64,000 nucleotides of DNA from Ammoniphilus oxalaticus (GTDB lineage Bacteria; Bacillota; Bacilli; Aneurinibacillales; RAOX-1). Each line of letters starts with the position of its first letter. Positions within the stretch are counted from its first letter, which is position 1. Both the position numbers and the translations under genes were made by a program. The stretch spans positions 1 through 64,000 of the forward strand of contig NZ_MCHY01000002.1 in NCBI RefSeq assembly GCF_003609605.1. Direction: 5' to 3'. Positions 3,315 to 14,231 of the stretch are shown here, piece after piece. Below the pieces are notes generated by a model. The model was not told the origin of the DNA and searched no databases. It saw only the letters and a list, made by a program, of their open reading frames with translations.

Positions 3315-4361
3315 TTACACCTCCAATAGCACACTACCTAAAACAGGCACTTCCTCATCAGTAAGAGGAACGTTTGCCATCGATCCATTAACGTGTAAAT
3401 CTGTGTAATCAAGGACCCCTTGCGTAGCTAATAAAATAGACCCTATTTTTGCGTAACTGACATATACTTCTTTAAATGCTATTTCTTTAAAGTATTCATT
3501 TAACGAACCAACAAACCGATCGCGCACACCTTGTAGCGAAAATCCTTTTGCGATATTAACATTTGCGTTTACATCAATTGTTTTCTCAGCTACAGATACT
3601 ACGGTGACCTCAACACATATTGGTCGTTTACTTTCGATGTGTTCATAAGTGGAGTTTACCAACTCACTTTCAGCAGCTCGCATGTTGGCATTAACGATGA
3701 CAACTTTTACTGTACCTGGCCCATCCCATCGTTCATATGCTTCCGCACCTCCAACGCCAGGCACCTCTTTAGCCCACATTTCATAATGGGCTTTATTTCC
3801 GCTTGTTGCAGGGTTTTTGATTCGTTCGTCATATCGCAACCAGAATTCCTCATCTGACTCTTCTTCGTAGCCCCCCGCGGTCGGTTCGTGATTAATTACA
3901 GATTGCAAACCAGGTATCGAAAGAGGCGTGTCTATGATTTGTTCAGAAGGAACATTCCCTATGGTTCCTGGCAAGATCGATCGAATAGGAACGGTCCCTC
4001 TCTCCTGAATTACTTTTTTCTCCATGACCTCAAACTGAATGCCAGTCGGAGTTTGGATGATGACCCCTTCTTCTAGAACGACATCTCCTACTACTTCCAC
4101 GTTCCCAATCGCATATGTAGCTGGTAGGCGGGTCTGGCCCGTCCGTTGGTTTACAAATCTGTCCAAGTCTTTTCCGCGCAGGTTTGCGGCATTTAGTAAT
4201 CTTGTTGCCGCCTGTATACGCTCGTATGCCTTTTCGAGCTGATGAGAAACTGGTCGGGTAGCGTCGAATATAAAAAAACCAACTGTTTTATCGTATTTAT
4301 TTGGGATTTCGCTCAACATCTCTTTGTGAATGTTTGCTGTTGTTTTATCCTCATGCACCAT
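3315..4361 (-). CDS. xkdT: Baseplate J family protein (XkdT-like)
   Basis: 348 residues from an ATG at 4361 that follows AGGAGGTTGGGT; it overlaps the end of the upstream gene by 11 bases, consistent with coupled translation. The protein has the baseplate J pattern: an N-terminal segment about founding the wedge (LRGKDLDRFVNQRTGQTR), a central VRPGTIGNVP-like motif seen here as ILPGTIGNVPSEQI, and the ESDEEFWLRYDERIKNPATS segment that is highly typical. J proteins form the baseplate wedge that triggers sheath contraction. A longer in-frame start at 4388 exists but lacks a ribosome site. Confidence 0.9.
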   Translation of the reverse strand: MVHEDKTTANIHKEMLSEIPNKYDKTVGFFIFDATRPVSHQLEKAYERIQAATRLLNAANLRGKDLDRFVNQRTGQTRLPATYAIGNVEVVGDVVLEEGVIIQTPTGIQFEVMEKKVIQERGTVPIRSILPGTIGNVPSEQIIDTPLSIPGLQSVINHEPTAGGYEEESDEEFWLRYDERIKNPATSGNKAHYEMWAKEVPGVGGAEAYERWDGPGTVKVVIVNANMRAAESELVNSTYEHIESKRPICVEVTVVSVAEKTIDVNANVNIAKGFSLQGVRDRFVGSLNEYFKEIAFKEVYVSYAKIGSILLATQGVLDYTDLHVNGSMANVPLTDEEVPVLGSVLLEV

Positions 4362-4794
4362 ACCCAACCTCCTGTTCAAACGCTCCATCAGGAGTAATTA
4401 CACGGAATTGCACACGCATCCACTTTCCATCACGCTCAAATCGCCAATCCTGTATATCATCAATATACGGATGCTGGATCAGTGATTCAGTCACTTCTCG
4501 TTTTATCTCTGCTTCCACAAAAGCGCGAGGTAGATTAGAACCGATTAAATCCTCTAGCGTGACACCATATTCAACGCCCTCATAAACCCTGAAGCGATAA
4601 CGCTCCGTCCTCATGCATTTCTCAATCCACACTTTGAGAGCATCTAATCCCTCCACTTCAACCATCTTTCCATTACGTAAGACAAACTCACCTTTGGTAA
4701 AATCAAATAAAAAAGACTTACCCATTGGTTCTAACTCATTAGGTAAGTCCTGTGTCTCAAATTCCAATTGTGCAATCTCTGGCAGCACGCTCAT
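4351..4794 (-). CDS. xkdS: Baseplate protein, DUF2634 family (XkdS-like)
   Basis: 147 residues; fits DUF2634, the gp25/XkdS type wedge protein found directly before baseplate J in PBSX-like phages. Features are SFLFDFTKGEFV near the N-terminus, the LKVWIEKCMRTERYRFRVY segment and GVTLEDLIG. The ATG follows GAGGTT and overlaps the preceding stop. Expected to act in the baseplate as a wedge or sheath initiator component. Confidence 0.85.
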   Translation of the reverse strand: MSVLPEIAQLEFETQDLPNELEPMGKSFLFDFTKGEFVLRNGKMVEVEGLDALKVWIEKCMRTERYRFRVYEGVEYGVTLEDLIGSNLPRAFVEAEIKREVTESLIQHPYIDDIQDWRFERDGKWMRVQFRVITPDGAFEQEVGYGA

Positions 4795-6641: not shown

Positions 6642-8792
6642 CTACAGATTTGCCCTTCTCATTTTAAGTAGTGGTACTAGCTCATTTACGATCTCTGTAA
6701 CCGATTTGTTATATCCGTCAATCGTGACGTATACATCGCCTTTCGGCATATTATTAATTACTTGGATTAATTGCGCCAATTGATCCGCAAGCCCGCTATT
6801 GTTTGTGTTTGACGTATTCGTTACATTGGTAACCTGTCTCACAGGTGCTTGCCTATCGACGTTGTTGATTGTCACACCTTGTTTACGTAGGTTGGTCGCC
6901 TGTGTCGCAGGCACAACCATTTCGTTTTTGTGCAACTCTGCAATATACCCATCGTATGGCACCCGATCAAGACCACTGGCGTGGGAACCACTAATAAAGT
7001 TTCTAACTTTACTTGCGCCCGTAGCAATAGCTCCGCCTATTTTCATCACCCATTCAGGTGGTTGGAAGCTAGTTATTGTGGATTTGAAATCATTGAATCT
7101 ATCAGAAAGACCTTGGAAGAAGCTGATCACGGGTTGTATCTTTTCAACTCCCCAATCATAGATGCCACCAAACACCTCTTTGGTTTTATCCCATAGTTCG
7201 CCAGCTTTTTCTCTTACAGTGTCCCAATTTTTATACAAAGCAACGCCAGCAGCGACTACTATACCAATTCCGACAGCAACCCACGTTAATGGGTTGGCTA
7301 GCATGGCTGTATTTAGACCAAGCTGTGCAAGTGTTTGTGCTACGGTTCCCGCCCTCATGGCCGCTATCAATATATTAAAAGTGCTGATCGCCGAGGAAAT
7401 ACCTGACACAATCTTGAATCCTGTCAAAGCCGTTATGATGCCAGCTGTAGCAGATATGACTAAATCGGAATTATCCTTAATCCACCCAACAGCACCAGTG
7501 ACGCCTTCTACCGCTGTTTTAACCAACCCCATAACACCAGTTCCGTCCTGCCACTCCTTCTTCATATCTTTCATTTTTTCTGTGGCTGTGCCGATAGCAC
7601 TTTCAACTGTGGCTTGTATAGCTGGCATATTATCTGTGATATTATCCGCTAGCGAACGAATAACAGGAGCCAGCCCTTTTCCGATGGTTATTTTTACATC
7701 GTCTATCGCTGAACCCATGAGTGTCATGGATCCCTGGAATGTATCCAGTTGTGTATTGGCCATATCCATAAGAGCGCCATCTGCACCTTGAATTTCTGTC
7801 TTCAGGCTGTCGTATTCATCACCTAATCCTTTGATTAATTTATCAAAGGATTTACCGTGATCTAATCCCGAAATCATGTTTTGGTAATGCTCTCTTTGTT
7901 TGTCTGTCATCCCACCCAGCTTATCAGCCGTTTCCTTAAGGACCACCTCTAATCCTCTAAAATTTCCCTCTGCATCATAAGCTGAAACTCCTATATCTCC
8001 TAACGCCTTCGCCGCTGGCCCTGTTGTGGATGCTAGTCGGGTCATGATCGCGTTCATCGCTGTTCCTGCTTCACTTCCCTTAGTACCTCGGTTTGCGAGA
8101 ATACCCATCAAGGCGTTAGATTCTTCTAGCGGGGTGTTAAATCGAGAAAACGTACCGCCTGCAACAACCATACCTTCCATAAATTCATCAATATCGGTGT
8201 TTGACCGCCTAGCTGTTTGAGCCACCTTATCCAAGTAATTATCAAGGCCATCAACCCCGATTCCCATGGCCGCCATACTATCTGTTGCCAAGTCAGATGC
8301 GCGACCTAAATCTAACGCGCCCGCTTCGGACAGACGGAGGACGGGTTCAATTCCAGTAAGCATTTGTTCTGTGTCCCATCCTGCCAAAGCTAAGTACTGT
8401 AATCCATCTGCCGCTTCCGAGGCAGTCTTAGATGTAGCGCGCCCCATCTCTCTAGCCTTGTCACTTAGCGCCTGGAACTCTTCACCCGCAACACCTGATA
8501 CAGCTTTAACGTTCGCCATACCTTGCTCAAAATCACCAAAGGCCTGCAAGGATGATCCGAATAAATCACTCACGCCTCTTACAGCAACAAATCCGGCGGC
8601 CAACCCAGCAGCTCCTAGAGCTATATTTTTAAAGTTCCCTGTCGCCGATTTGCCAAACTTTTTAATGCTATTTCCTGTGTGTTTTACCTTTCTGTCTAAA
8701 TCTTTAGTGGCGGAGGTGGCTTTTTGTGCGTTAGTCGCGAAGTCTTTATCTTTTAGCGTGAGAACCGCCGATATAACACGACCTCTTGCCAT
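6642..8792 (-). CDS. Tail tape measure protein
   Basis: 716 residues. Residues 1-60 are charged and helical, followed by a TP901-type tape measure core (FAVRGVSDLFGSS, then AREMGRATSKTASEAADGLQYLALAGWDTEQML). Hydrophobic segments occur near residues 56-72 and 485-535 (for example VAVGIGIVVAAGVALY). The C-terminus has SHASGLDRVPYDGYIAELHKNEMVVP, typical of these proteins. It sets tail length and probably passes into the cell envelope during infection. The ATG follows GGTGAGA. A terminator-like hairpin lies about 30 bases before its start. Confidence 0.9.
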   Translation of the reverse strand: MARGRVISAVLTLKDKDFATNAQKATSATKDLDRKVKHTGNSIKKFGKSATGNFKNIALGAAGLAAGFVAVRGVSDLFGSSLQAFGDFEQGMANVKAVSGVAGEEFQALSDKAREMGRATSKTASEAADGLQYLALAGWDTEQMLTGIEPVLRLSEAGALDLGRASDLATDSMAAMGIGVDGLDNYLDKVAQTARRSNTDIDEFMEGMVVAGGTFSRFNTPLEESNALMGILANRGTKGSEAGTAMNAIMTRLASTTGPAAKALGDIGVSAYDAEGNFRGLEVVLKETADKLGGMTDKQREHYQNMISGLDHGKSFDKLIKGLGDEYDSLKTEIQGADGALMDMANTQLDTFQGSMTLMGSAIDDVKITIGKGLAPVIRSLADNITDNMPAIQATVESAIGTATEKMKDMKKEWQDGTGVMGLVKTAVEGVTGAVGWIKDNSDLVISATAGIITALTGFKIVSGISSAISTFNILIAAMRAGTVAQTLAQLGLNTAMLANPLTWVAVGIGIVVAAGVALYKNWDTVREKAGELWDKTKEVFGGIYDWGVEKIQPVISFFQGLSDRFNDFKSTITSFQPPEWVMKIGGAIATGASKVRNFISGSHASGLDRVPYDGYIAELHKNEMVVPATQATNLRKQGVTINNVDRQAPVRQVTNVTNTSNTNNSGLADQLAQLIQVINNMPKGDVYVTIDGYNKSVTEIVNELVPLLKMRRANL

Positions 8793-8820
8793 GAATCATC
8801 TCACCGTCTTTCACTTAAAA

Positions 8821-8851
8821 GGAAAAAGGCTAGGTGGATGTCCACTTAGCC
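8821..8851 (-). terminator. Terminator hairpin before the tape measure gene
   Basis: On the minus strand the stem GGCTAaGTGGA / TCCACcTAGCC has ten pairs with one A-C mismatch and a tiny loop, followed by TTTTTCC. This is a convincing intrinsic terminator inside the late operon. The stop codon of the frameshifted chaperone (8830-8832) lies in its 3' arm. Confidence 0.75.
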
Positions 8852-8988
8852 GCTTCCTCAAAATATAAGGACATACTAGCTCGCATTAATAACTTATCTG
8901 CAAGGGGAAGATTTAATAAACTTTCCACCGTATGTCCTTTGTGTATATAGTGATGAAGAAAGTAAAAATCATCATCACTTTTAATTAG
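8830..8988 (-). CDS. Minus-one frame extension of tail assembly chaperone
   Basis: A 52-residue open frame (starting LIKSDDDFYFLHHYI, ending FEEAAKWTST) without its own start or ribosome site. It joins the upstream chaperone frame through a -1 slip at 8988-8994, giving a 181-residue fusion. This matches the G and GT organisation described for lambda and conserved in many long-tailed phages, where the fusion brings major tail protein and tape measure together. The segment is rich in aromatic and Leu residues, as usual for the T part. It ends within a terminator hairpin. Confidence 0.85.
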   Translation of the reverse strand, partial: LIKSDDDFYFLHHYIHKGHTVESLLNLPLADKLLMRASMSLYFEEAAKWTST

Positions 8989-8994
8989 TTTTTT
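8950..8994 (-). promoter_or_regulatory. Programmed -1 ribosomal frameshift signal
   Basis: Zero-frame codons TTA AAA AAC contain the canonical slippery heptamer A AAA AAC (8988-8994), directly before the zero-frame stop TAA (8985-8987). Nine bases downstream a hairpin forms (GTGATGA pairing with TCATCAC, 8950-8978), which would act as stimulator. After the slip the next codon is CTA and the frame stays open for 52 codons. Confidence 0.85.
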
Positions 8995-9374
8995 AAGTCT
9001 TCAACCACCTTAATCTGTTCACCATATCCAGCCAAATCTAGGGCGAGTTGTGCTATCTTAGGAATTTCACCTGGTTCGAAAATTTTCAAAACAATATCTG
9101 TTGGCTCAACACATTTGTATGCTTTTTGAAGCTCGGGATCCTTCAGGTTCGGTTCCGCGATTGTGCTATAGGCTAAAAACACATCACCATCGCGGTCATC
9201 ACCATTACCCATCTGTATAGATTCGATGCACAAAGATCGTTCTGGTTTTCTGATAGTGATGCTTGCGCCTAATCTTGGAATAAACAACTCTCTTGTAACG
9301 TCATCTTTGACTTGGTACTTTTCCTTATCTTTAATTAAATCTGCAACCGTTAACTTTTCAATGTTTTTGTTCAT
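8985..9374 (-). CDS. xkdN: Tail assembly chaperone, zero-frame product (XkdN-like)
   Basis: 129 residues; XkdN/YqbN family, which lies between tube and tape measure genes in PBSX-like phages. Seen features are TVADLIKDKEKY near the N-terminus, FIPRLGASITIRKPERS and DIVLKIFEPGEIPKIAQLALDL at the C-terminus. It is the short (G-like) form of a pair made by -1 frameshifting at its last codons. It should hold tail tube subunits and tape measure until the tube polymerises. Start ATG at 9374 follows AAAGGAGATG. Confidence 0.85.
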   Translation of the reverse strand: MNKNIEKLTVADLIKDKEKYQVKDDVTRELFIPRLGASITIRKPERSLCIESIQMGNGDDRDGDVFLAYSTIAEPNLKDPELQKAYKCVEPTDIVLKIFEPGEIPKIAQLALDLAGYGEQIKVVEDLKN

Positions 9375-9393
9375 TTAATTACATCTCCTTTTA

Positions 9394-9825
9394 TTATGAA
9401 ATTGACTCAATCATGTCATAATCGCTAAAGTTATATGATAACTCCTCGGTCATCCTTGTCTTTTGTTCAAATTTCAAAAGTGTGAACTCGTTAAACGTTA
9501 CGCCTTTGATAGCCACTCGCTCCGCTCCGAAGGCATCGGGATCAGCCAGCTTACCCACAATATTGATTTCTGGCAGCACTCCAGTTTTGACAGCATTAGC
9601 TAAAAGGGCAGCGCCTCGGCTGTATACCTTCTTTACCGTCATGCTGCCCTCACCGTTCCAACCAATTAACTTTTTATGAGTAGCTAAATCCTCGGCCATA
9701 TTCACATCTTCATATTCTGGATTTACTTTCGCCTCAAAAGATTCAACATCTAACCATTTTTCATTATTTACCCACACCGCGCCAAATGTGCCGTTAATCT
9801 GCTTATTAGCAGGTAACTTTGACAT
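9394..9825 (-). CDS. xkdM: Tail tube protein (XkdM-like)
   Basis: 143 residues of the XkdM / phage-like element PBSX tail tube family. Typical features are an N-terminal NGTFGAVWVNNEKW, EYEDVNMAEDLATHKKLIGWNGEGSMTVKKVYSRGA in the middle (here broken for description: residues about 40-75) and a C-terminal EQKTRMTEELSYNFSDYD. It polymerises into the inner tube that crosses the envelope. It directly follows the sheath gene, as expected for contractile tails. Confidence 0.9.
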   Translation of the reverse strand: MSKLPANKQINGTFGAVWVNNEKWLDVESFEAKVNPEYEDVNMAEDLATHKKLIGWNGEGSMTVKKVYSRGAALLANAVKTGVLPEINIVGKLADPDAFGAERVAIKGVTFNEFTLLKFEQKTRMTEELSYNFSDYDMIESIS

Positions 9826-9840
9826 GCGTTATCACTCCTT

Positions 9841-10899
9841 TTAAACCGCGATATTGAAATCTAAATCTTCCATTGCATCAACGATTTTAATTCTTCCAGC
9901 CAGATACACATTCCGTCTAAACGATCTATTCTTTACTTCCTGATCATCCCAATCAGATGTATCTGTACCGATTTCTTCCCACGCCAGACGCTGTTTGCGG
10001 ACATCTACATCCGCTCTGTTATCCTCGTTAGGATCTAGGATTTCATCATCACCCAACCCCGCAAAGTAAGCATTAACCGATGTGATGAATAACACCTGAT
10101 TATCATAGATGTTATTAACCTTACCAACATAATGCTTGTCGAACGTTTCGCGAATATCATCTTTGATCATATGCATTACCTCAATAACACGGATAGATTT
10201 AAAATCTTCTGTTTTCTCAGTCGATGTAGTTGTCAGGCTGTTAACCCCGCGTCCGATTTTAATGTTTTCACCATCGTTAATTAAGATCAATTCACCTGCA
10301 TCAATAGCCGCGTCAGGATCCTCAACTTCTTTAATCGATTCAATTTCGGGAAACTCGTAATAAGTAATCGAACGCGTAAATGGCAACCCTGCAACCGCCC
10401 CTGCCACACGCGCCGTATACTCTGCTGTCGTATATTCTTTACCCTCAGCAACGATCTCTTCAGCGGTGAAATTGAGGATGCATTCATGGTCTCCTTTGAC
10501 ATTTGGCAAGACTACTTTAAACGTTCGCTTATCATTATCGTGCTTAGATTTAATCCAACTTGCGATAATCTCAGTGTCTACTTGTCCAATCTGAGGAATG
10601 GCAAGGTAATTCCACCGCTTACTATTCAAGCGTTTTAGAGCTTCGTTATAGTTATCTGCATCCTCTGGCAATCGCTCAACGATCACCCTACTGGGCGTTC
10701 CTCTAAATGCCTTTTCGATGTAGTCATAACATTTCTCAGACCATTCTTCTGGCTCGACTTCTTCTATGCTTCTATATACAATCGTGTCTTTTTCCTGTGT
10801 ATCATCTTTTAAGATGAGGGCGACGATGCCTAGTTGACTTCGCCGAACCGCAGTAACGGCTCGACCCTTAAACTCGATGTTGATTTGTGGTAAGCCCAA
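9841..10899 (-). CDS. xkdK: Tail sheath protein (XkdK-like)
   Basis: 352 residues, the length of XkdK-type short sheaths. The protein starts GLPQINIEFKGRAVTAVRRS, has a Rossmann-like middle segment (WNYLAIPQIGQVDTEIIASW) and a C-terminal half rich in conserved sheath motifs: AAIDAGELILINDGENIKIGRGVNSL and RVIEVMHMIKDDIRETF, ending in RIKIVDAMEDLDFNIAV. It forms the contractile outer cylinder. Presence of this gene is what identifies the phage as a myovirus. Confidence 0.92.
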   Translation of the reverse strand: MGLPQINIEFKGRAVTAVRRSQLGIVALILKDDTQEKDTIVYRSIEEVEPEEWSEKCYDYIEKAFRGTPSRVIVERLPEDADNYNEALKRLNSKRWNYLAIPQIGQVDTEIIASWIKSKHDNDKRTFKVVLPNVKGDHECILNFTAEEIVAEGKEYTTAEYTARVAGAVAGLPFTRSITYYEFPEIESIKEVEDPDAAIDAGELILINDGENIKIGRGVNSLTTTSTEKTEDFKSIRVIEVMHMIKDDIRETFDKHYVGKVNNIYDNQVLFITSVNAYFAGLGDDEILDPNEDNRADVDVRKQRLAWEEIGTDTSDWDDQEVKNRSFRRNVYLAGRIKIVDAMEDLDFNIAV

Positions 10900-12444: not shown

Positions 12445-12462
12445 GGGCTAGGGTACTAGCCC
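12445..12462 (-). terminator. Hairpin behind the major capsid gene
   Basis: A perfect 7-pair stem (GGGCTAG / CTAGCCC, 4-base loop) sits just after the capsid stop and is followed on the minus strand by AGTCCC on one side and TTTATG on the other. The U-run is short, so it may be a partial terminator or mRNA stabiliser that keeps capsid transcripts more abundant than those of the connector genes. Confidence 0.45.
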
Positions 12463-12468
12463 AGTCCC

Positions 12469-13629
12469 TTATGCACCTGTTTCTGGTTCTTCGTATTCTG
12501 TTGGAATATTAACAGTTACTTTATAAATGTTTACTTTAGTATGTTCATCCTCAACTTTCCCAACATCATTCCTGATCGCCACACCTAGGCATTCGCCAAA
12601 ATGTAAATAGTTTGTCCATTGAACACGTACTTGGGAACGATCAAAATAAACAATTTCTCTTAAATCCCCAACGAACATAGTTGTTTTGTTAGGAAAATAT
12701 TCATCATCTAGCACTTCGATCTCTTTACCAAGCAATCGGTATCCAGTTTCAGAAGTAACAGATTCCTGAAGGAGGTAGCGACCATTTTTATCTTTGATTC
12801 GATCAAGATTATCAAAAACAGACTGGCTAGCAAGAATCTTAATGCGATTCTTTTTTCCTGCGGAAAATCCTGTGTTTAGTAATGTTTTTAATGCATCAAT
12901 AGAATTGACAGTTTTTCCCCGGACTGTATTTAATTCGGCTAGAATGTCGTCGTTTTCCGTGTTAACAACAACCTCGCCGATAAATTGTTTTAAATCCGCC
13001 ACAAGGTTAAGTCCATCTTGCTTGTATTCTTCGGAATATGGAATATACCCGCGTTTCGTTTTGACCTTGTAGTCAACTTCCGTGAATGGAGTAACTCCAA
13101 TTGCTGGGCTGGCTGCCAATTCTTCAACTGTGCTTAATTTTGCTTTCGCCGTAGTTCGGACTGGCTGCGTGCCGCTTGAAGTTGACACAGGCTTTACTGT
13201 GACGAATTTCTTAAGGCTTACAATATCATCCGCAAGTTCAATAATCTTCTTGCTCTCTTCTTTTGGGATAATAACATACCCTTCGTCCGTTTTTAATCCG
13301 TCCGTCTCGATGTCGCGGGTTTCGAGATAACTTTCAAAGGCCGCGCGCTCTTCCTGTTCAGGTGTCTTTTCGCCGCTTCCTACCTTGCGGAAATTTGATT
13401 GTCCTTCTTGTTTACGTTGTTCGCTACCTTCTGGGTTATCGTCTCCGGGTTCGTGATCCCCCAAGCCTTCATGCATCCTCTGGCGCGCTTCGATTTCCAT
13501 TTTTTCTTTTTGTAATTCACGAACTTCTTTTTCTAAATCCGAAAAGGTCGTGTCCCCTCGCTTTTCATCATCCTCCAACATTCCTCGAATTTCGTTTAGT
13601 CTCGCTTCGATTTCTTGTAGTCTATTCAT
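12469..13629 (-). CDS. Major capsid protein, HK97 fold with delta domain
   Basis: 386 residues. Residues 1-60 are a coiled coil (LNEIRGMLEDDEKRGDTTFS, EVRELQKEKMEIEARQ) corresponding to the HK97 delta scaffold that the protease removes. A disordered stretch to about 100 leads into the HK97-type shell domain (VTPFTEVDYKVKTKRGYIPY, ILASQSVFDNLDRIKDKNGR, MFVGDLREIVYFDRSQVRVQ). It directly follows the protease gene, the classic order portal-protease-capsid. Confidence 0.92.
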   Translation of the reverse strand: MNRLQEIEARLNEIRGMLEDDEKRGDTTFSDLEKEVRELQKEKMEIEARQRMHEGLGDHEPGDDNPEGSEQRKQEGQSNFRKVGSGEKTPEQEERAAFESYLETRDIETDGLKTDEGYVIIPKEESKKIIELADDIVSLKKFVTVKPVSTSSGTQPVRTTAKAKLSTVEELAASPAIGVTPFTEVDYKVKTKRGYIPYSEEYKQDGLNLVADLKQFIGEVVVNTENDDILAELNTVRGKTVNSIDALKTLLNTGFSAGKKNRIKILASQSVFDNLDRIKDKNGRYLLQESVTSETGYRLLGKEIEVLDDEYFPNKTTMFVGDLREIVYFDRSQVRVQWTNYLHFGECLGVAIRNDVGKVEDEHTKVNIYKVTVNIPTEYEEPETGA

Positions 13630-13631
13630 TA

Positions 13632-14231
13632 CTAGAGTCCTCCTAATTCAATTAAGGTTTTTATTTTCGAAACTTGTTCTTCCTGATATTCTTTTAATTC
13701 TTCTTTATAAACTTTCATTCTGTCGTATCCTCGGGCGCTTACCTCTGAATCTGGATAAGCTGGAAATGCAACAGCGCTGACTTCTATCAGATCTGCCTTT
13801 TTAATCGTCCTTAATGGAATATCGTCATCAAATTCTTCGACATGGTCATCGGGGTTACGGAAGCCAAACGAAACACCATCCACATCACCACGCTTGATAG
13901 ATTCATATGTGTCATTACCAAGCGTTGTATTCGGTAAATCTAATTCAAAATACAATCCGACATCATCTTCCTTAAGGCGCAAACTGTTATTTTTAATACG
14001 ACCAAGGACTTTTGAGGAATCGTGAGACCATAAAAAACGCTGATCCCCGTTTTCTAGAGAATCAGCGAACGCACCCCTTTTAAATTGTTCACGAAACTTC
14101 ATAAAGTAACCTAAAACATGTGATTTCTTTTCCCATTTAACTGCATATCCGCTTATAGTGCGATTACCATCATCATCTTCGCGGATTTCAATCTGCTCCG
14201 TTATCAATTCCCTTGTTTCCGTTTTGTCCAT
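13632..14231 (-). CDS. Prohead protease (HK97 family)
   Basis: 199 residues of the U35-type prohead serine protease. The N-terminus has the typical RTISGYAVKWEKKSHVLGY and FREQFKRGAFADSL; FLWSHDSSKVLGRIKNNSLR holds the catalytic His region and VDGVSFGFRNPDD holds the catalytic Ser. It cuts the capsid delta domain and other prohead proteins. Its ATG at 14231 lies inside the portal gene (44-base overlap) after GGTGAGG. Confidence 0.92.
   Translation of the reverse strand: MDKTETRELITEQIEIREDDDGNRTISGYAVKWEKKSHVLGYFMKFREQFKRGAFADSLENGDQRFLWSHDSSKVLGRIKNNSLRLKEDDVGLYFELDLPNTTLGNDTYESIKRGDVDGVSFGFRNPDDHVEEFDDDIPLRTIKKADLIEVSAVAFPAYPDSEVSARGYDRMKVYKEELKEYQEEQVSKIKTLIELGGL

Follow-up and report, generated by a model that had tools for sequence, protein, structure and literature searches.

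A conserved terminator-like hairpin between the chaperone and tape measure genes of a prophage in Ammoniphilus oxalaticus

The stretch of DNA analysed here (the window) comprises 64,000 nucleotides of Ammoniphilus oxalaticus and contains a prophage, whose minus-strand genes run from capsid and head-tail genes through sheath, tube and chaperone (TAC) to tape measure and baseplate (Table 1). A hairpin followed by a U-tract lies between the last codons of TAC and the tape measure gene, and the stop codon of the -1 frame of TAC is contained in its 3' arm. A phage has to make capsid and tube subunits by the hundreds but few tape measures from one late operon, and to our knowledge little has been measured on how late-operon output is scaled in Gram-positive phages. 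Then, could such a hairpin limit the transcription of the tape measure gene, and could the frameshift control it? Both had been proposed in a first-pass annotation of the window, according to which the -1 shift rate could set how much transcription reaches the tape measure and baseplate genes.

Table 1. Positions of the late genes and RNA features considered in this study.
Feature	Position	Strand	Evidence
Major capsid gene	12469..13629	(-)	Phage_capsid PF05065 E 5.1e-22
Second terminator-like hairpin, 6 nt past the capsid stop, then TTTATGTT	12445..12462	(-)	dG -10.9
Tail sheath gene, terminator downstream	9841..10899	(-)	Phage_sheath_1C E 1.5e-16
Tail tube protein gene, terminator downstream	9394..9825	(-)	DUF2001 phage tail tube E 6.3e-47
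TAC, 0-frame product	8985..9374	(-)	Phage_TAC_5 (XkdN-like) E 3.7e-11; phrog_4976 E 9.7e-35
Slippery heptamer A AAA AAC, in frame for a -1 shift, then UAA	8988..8994	(-)	sequence
Stem-loop 8 nt past the heptamer, probable frameshift stimulator	8949..8979	(-)	dG -11.3, z -4.05; position kept in clade members
-1 extension of TAC, conserved domain and variable tail, UAG 8832-8830	8830..8991	(-)	
Terminator-like hairpin: 5' arm 8851-8842, loop 8841-8838, 3' arm 8837-8828 holding the -1 UAG	8828..8851	(-)	
U-tract UUUUUCCUUUU, predicted site of 3' ends	8817..8827	(-)	sequence
Tape measure gene	6642..8792	(-)	PhageMin_Tail E 2.2e-44

The chaperone gene and its frameshift

The 0-frame of TAC ends with GAC TTA AAA AAC TAA, and a shift into the -1 frame would extend the product by 52 codons. 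The combination of A AAA AAC and a stop codon is the same in every homology-anchored locus of the first set examined. In the table of 60 TAC loci, the heptamer is A AAA AAC in 55 and A AAA AAA or A AAA AAG in the other five; note that this table was anchored on AAAAAA[ACG] plus a stop, and absence of the heptamer cannot show up in it. The -1 extension is 26-57% identical to that of the window across the relatives, and third-codon-position changes are in excess in the -1 frame when the relatives are compared. The slippery heptamer, the conserved -1 coding extension and the place of the TAC family between the tube and tape measure genes, as judged from the Pfam neighbours, are all shared with the lambda G/GT type and with the XkdN-like Phage_TAC_5. 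The frameshift is of a known kind, and a fusion protein is predicted. The hairpin is located in the variable C-terminal tail of the -1 domain, and therefore its presence is not forced by protein conservation.

In addition, TAC of five viral contigs (L057, L058 and L060-L062) ends with A AAA AAA or A AAA AAG followed by UAG. Within their -1 ORF, about 60-110 nt further on, there is a long stem (dG -20 to -29), which differs from the short one in the clade to which the window belongs. One more XkdN-type TAC and a further tape measure gene are found elsewhere in the host genome, at G000:C9:10171-10530 and G000:C13:5810-6403, and the genome probably carries one or two further prophage tail clusters.

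The hairpin in the window and among relatives

The hairpin GGCUAaGUGGacauCCACcUAGCC at 8851-8828 (dG -12.4 kcal/mol, z -4.3) is GC-rich and runs directly into UUUUUCCUUUU on its 3' side, as intrinsic terminators do. It is composed of two helices, of 5 bp and 4 bp, on either side of an A.C mismatch, because of which a simple perfect-stem scan missed it; only one of 200 shuffled sequences gives an equally good fold. The stem begins 133 nt past the 0-frame stop, and all the coordinates on which the proposal of frameshift control was built, including the 0-frame stop at 8985, have been confirmed. Two further features could be summarized. The translated -1 ORF overlaps the hairpin and ends in its 3' arm, as in a ribosome-dependent attenuator, and the hairpin is intra-operonic, at the passage from high to low demand, with the tube and TAC genes upstream and the tape measure gene downstream, as in a terminator that sets stoichiometry. 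A scan of 8600-9400 against Rfam gave no match up to E 1.

Two other roles for RNA structure in this region were considered. Sequestration of the tape measure Shine-Dalgarno sequence by the stem was ruled out, since the SD-like GGUGA at 8805-8801 is outside the hairpin in the fold of the region. A perfect 10-bp inverted repeat, AAGGACATAC/GTATGTCCTT at 8939-8930/8876-8867 (-), is present in the -1 region, downstream of the frameshift stem and upstream of the terminator; it was set aside as a regulatory fold, as the relatives folded have no counterpart there.

In the tree of 60 TAC rows, the window falls into a clade of 11 rows (support 95/98) together with prophages of Lysinibacillus and Rummeliibacillus. 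The terminator (core dG -10.3 to -15.1) is present in all the 11 members, its 3' arm always contains the -1 UAG and a U-tract is found 3' of the stem, and the stem sequences are strongly divergent among them. The first-pass annotation had put forward covariation of the hairpin and the stop position in relatives as a check. In the clade, besides the nesting in 11/11, the two arms covary: the outer six pairs form in 54 of 54 cells (nine distinct clade members), compared with 70% when the arms are swapped between relatives. Here, the pairs were counted by register from the stem base, as MAFFT left the stems of the hairpin region unaligned, and the 11 members share descent and are not 11 independent cases. 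A chance hairpin without function would be in keeping with the terminator-like stems that also occur within genes of these loci at the same threshold (roughly one per 8 kb). The equivalent position of the studied hairpin in the whole clade, with arms that are divergent yet covary, argues against chance and makes this explanation highly improbable. We take it as established from the sequences that the hairpin is a terminator-like element under selection.

Outside the clade, the picture is diverse. Unlike the window, most of the relatives with a programmed -1 frameshift (40 of the 60 TAC loci) lack a terminator of this kind where the -1 ORF ends, and the tape measure start there often abuts or overlaps the -1 stop. 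Elsewhere in the TAC tree, differently built terminators occur at the equivalent place, and the -1 stop is located in the 3' arm in L119, in the loop in L023, L053, L109 and L113, in the 5' arm in L120, and 8 nt upstream of the hairpin in L110. Among 29 Bacilli loci with unrelated tape measure genes, 13 have some terminator-like stem within 350 nt upstream. Only a few of these stems look canonical and adjoin the tape measure gene, so that tape measure genes are not generally preceded by a terminator. In one unrelated Bacilli prophage (L145), a G/T-like pair, in which AAAAAG precedes the stop, is found 330 nt upstream of the tape measure frame. The end of its T-like ORF falls within a strong terminator hairpin at a distance of 25 nt from that frame; it is possibly an independent case of the same layout.

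Translation and termination in the host

Could the frameshift then gate termination at this hairpin? Under such a mechanism, a lead ribosome that shifts to the -1 frame would enter the hairpin and hold the stem open, so that the polymerase continues into the tape measure gene, while an unshifted lead ribosome would leave the message 133 nt earlier and the hairpin would terminate. Among the loci where a strong terminator occurs at the TAC end, 16 have a -1 stop that overlaps its hairpin. To see how common such nesting is, terminators at ORF ends, where ORFs stand in for genes, were surveyed in 805 kb of the host genome and in 250 kb of E. coli K-12. A terminator is present at 184 of the 701 ORF ends in the host sample. 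The stop codon is inside the hairpin in 19 of the 184, of which nine are in the 5' arm, seven in the loop or mixed, and three in the 3' arm. Of 276 co-directional host gene pairs with a gap of up to 50 nt, six carry a terminator, and the stop is always upstream of it. With so few stops in the 3' arm and so few terminators between close pairs, the nesting is unusual and not forced by compactness. This rarity is the best argument for gating by the frameshift, as a fixed terminator does not explain the nesting. A further point in its favor is that stalled ribosomes steer attenuation at vmlR, bmrCD and tlrB of B. subtilis (PMC9226507).

However, control by the shift rate needs a lead ribosome close behind the RNA polymerase at the hairpin. 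In runaway transcription the RNA polymerase outruns the lead ribosome, and short distances between stop and terminator go with it, according to work of 2020 as far as it is reported in PMC7858274; purine-rich coding strands accompany it as well (PMC13323073). In the host sample, the stem starts no more than 10 nt past the stop in 56 of the 184 terminators, with a median distance of 14 nt, whereas the E. coli sample gave 28 terminators, two with the stop inside and five within 10 nt, and a median of 21. The median purine excess of coding strands is 0.094 in the host, which falls in the same order as Aneurinibacillus, and 0.031 in E. coli. These proxies, the stop-to-stem distances and the purine bias, point to uncoupled host transcription of the runaway type, and control by the shift rate is not supported. 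The prophage ORFs themselves (20 ORFs in 1-33000 of the window) are more purine-rich still than those of the host, with a median excess of 0.154.

The features that could bring polymerase and ribosome together, or let the RNA choose between two folds, were also looked for. No competing antiterminator fold was found around the hairpin of the window, where the mean pair probability of the terminator is 0.99 in full context (it is weakest in L113, with a mean of 0.70), and an RNA antiterminator was rejected since the terminator dominates the ensemble. The NusG motif TTNTTT, the only pause signal scanned for, is absent within 80 nt of the stem in 16 loci, so that nothing of this kind would hold the polymerase there; NusG pausing assists attenuation at vmlR and tlrB (PMC9226507). 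Moreover, a pause at the slippery site would presumably delay, not advance, a shifted ribosome, and a terminator after the capsid gene exists without any frameshift (see below). As in the trp leader and in vmlR, bmrCD and tlrB (PMC9226507), a ribosome on a translated stretch that overlaps an RNA structure could in principle alter termination. In contrast to them, the phage site is deep within the late operon and has no antiterminator fold, no promoter-proximal leader peptide, and no known stall signal or NusG motif near the stem.

Taken together, one part of the original proposal stands: a conserved terminator-like hairpin, which shifted but not unshifted ribosomes would reach, precedes the tape measure gene, and probably attenuates transcription into this gene and the baseplate genes. 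The other part, in which the -1 shift rate sets the attenuation, is not supported, and we regard frameshift gating as unlikely. If it were true, a programmed frameshift would be a transcriptional switch, and the first ribosome on every transcript that reads through into the tape measure gene would have made the chaperone fusion. In either case, a frameshift stop nested in a terminator stem offers a clean test of whether translation gates termination in a host with uncoupled transcription.

Predicted terminators where demand falls

The hairpin before the tape measure gene is accompanied by another one behind the capsid gene. In 8 of 10 loci, a terminator-like hairpin occurs within about 110 nt 3' of the capsid gene, and in L034, L044 and L049 its 5' arm contains the capsid stop; there is no frameshift at the end of the capsid gene. 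Between sheath and baseplate, no gene boundary of these loci other than that before the tape measure gene has a terminator at the threshold used. A terminator in that position without a frameshift argues for a fixed role. The capsid is present in hundreds of copies, sheath and tube in about a hundred or more, and tape measure and baseplate proteins in a few. The two terminators therefore stand where demand falls.

Consequently, the reading that we favor, with somewhat better than even confidence, is that the hairpin would act as a fixed partial terminator, independent of frameshifting, at a boundary with the chaperone gene and the genes of the high-copy capsid, sheath and tube proteins upstream and those of the low-copy tape measure and baseplate proteins downstream. 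Some of the late transcripts would stop at 8827-8817, and the remainder would read through to give mRNA of the tape measure and downstream genes. Together with the capsid terminator, this would produce a stepwise fall of mRNA from capsid to sheath, tube and chaperone, and then to tape measure and baseplate. In an uncoupled host, the RNA polymerase would be past the hairpin, or would have already stopped, before any ribosome arrives, and the -1 frameshift would set the ratio of chaperone to fusion while the terminator separately sets the supply of tape measure. Termination in vivo, its partial extent, its stoichiometric purpose and its independence from frameshifting are all what we infer from the layout. 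Separate evidence against a fixed terminator comes from the 40 TAC loci that have none, which indicates that other phages manage without it.

Two other explanations leave the frameshift aside as well. After termination or cleavage, the stem could mark or protect the upstream mRNA at its 3' end, which would raise the capsid, tube and chaperone mRNA instead of limiting tape measure transcription. A stable stem at a copy-number boundary would suit this role, and in Clostridium cellulolyticum, intergenic stems have been described as sites where RNA is selectively processed and stabilised (PMC4423207). However, plain stabilising stems have no need of the U-tract that follows the stem in every clade member, and 3'-end protection appears about as improbable as frameshift gating. 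Alternatively, a full terminator could keep stray transcription in the lysogen from entering the tape measure, baseplate and lysis genes, and be overridden by a phage antitermination factor in the lytic cycle. The core dG of the terminator is near the host median of -12.8, and terminators of such ordinary host strength within a late operon are consistent with regulated insulation; the position at the boundary of tube and tape measure is better explained by stoichiometry, which leaves insulation a slightly smaller chance still.

A fixed partial terminator would not be without precedent. Internal intrinsic terminators set operon stoichiometry in the ABC importer operons of cellulolytic clostridia (PMC9045158), where, as here, a stem-loop and a U-tract lie within the operon between a high-demand gene and low-demand genes. 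The differences are that the present case is a phage late operon and that the upstream ORF (the frameshift product) ends inside the stem. While operon stoichiometry by internal terminators is already known, we found no description in the open-access literature of an internal terminator in a phage tail operon, or of one gated by a frameshift; the use in a phage tail operon would be new as far as that literature goes. A conserved pair of terminators at the copy-number boundaries would be a directly testable answer to how late-operon output is scaled.

Other terminator-like stems are found inside genes of the window. For example, a strong hairpin at 14067-14038 (-), with dG -15.8 and followed by TTTTTTAT, is located within ORF 14231..13632 just upstream of the capsid gene, an ORF that holds the position of the prohead protease. 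A similar hairpin is located at 4749-4715, inside ORF 4794..4351.
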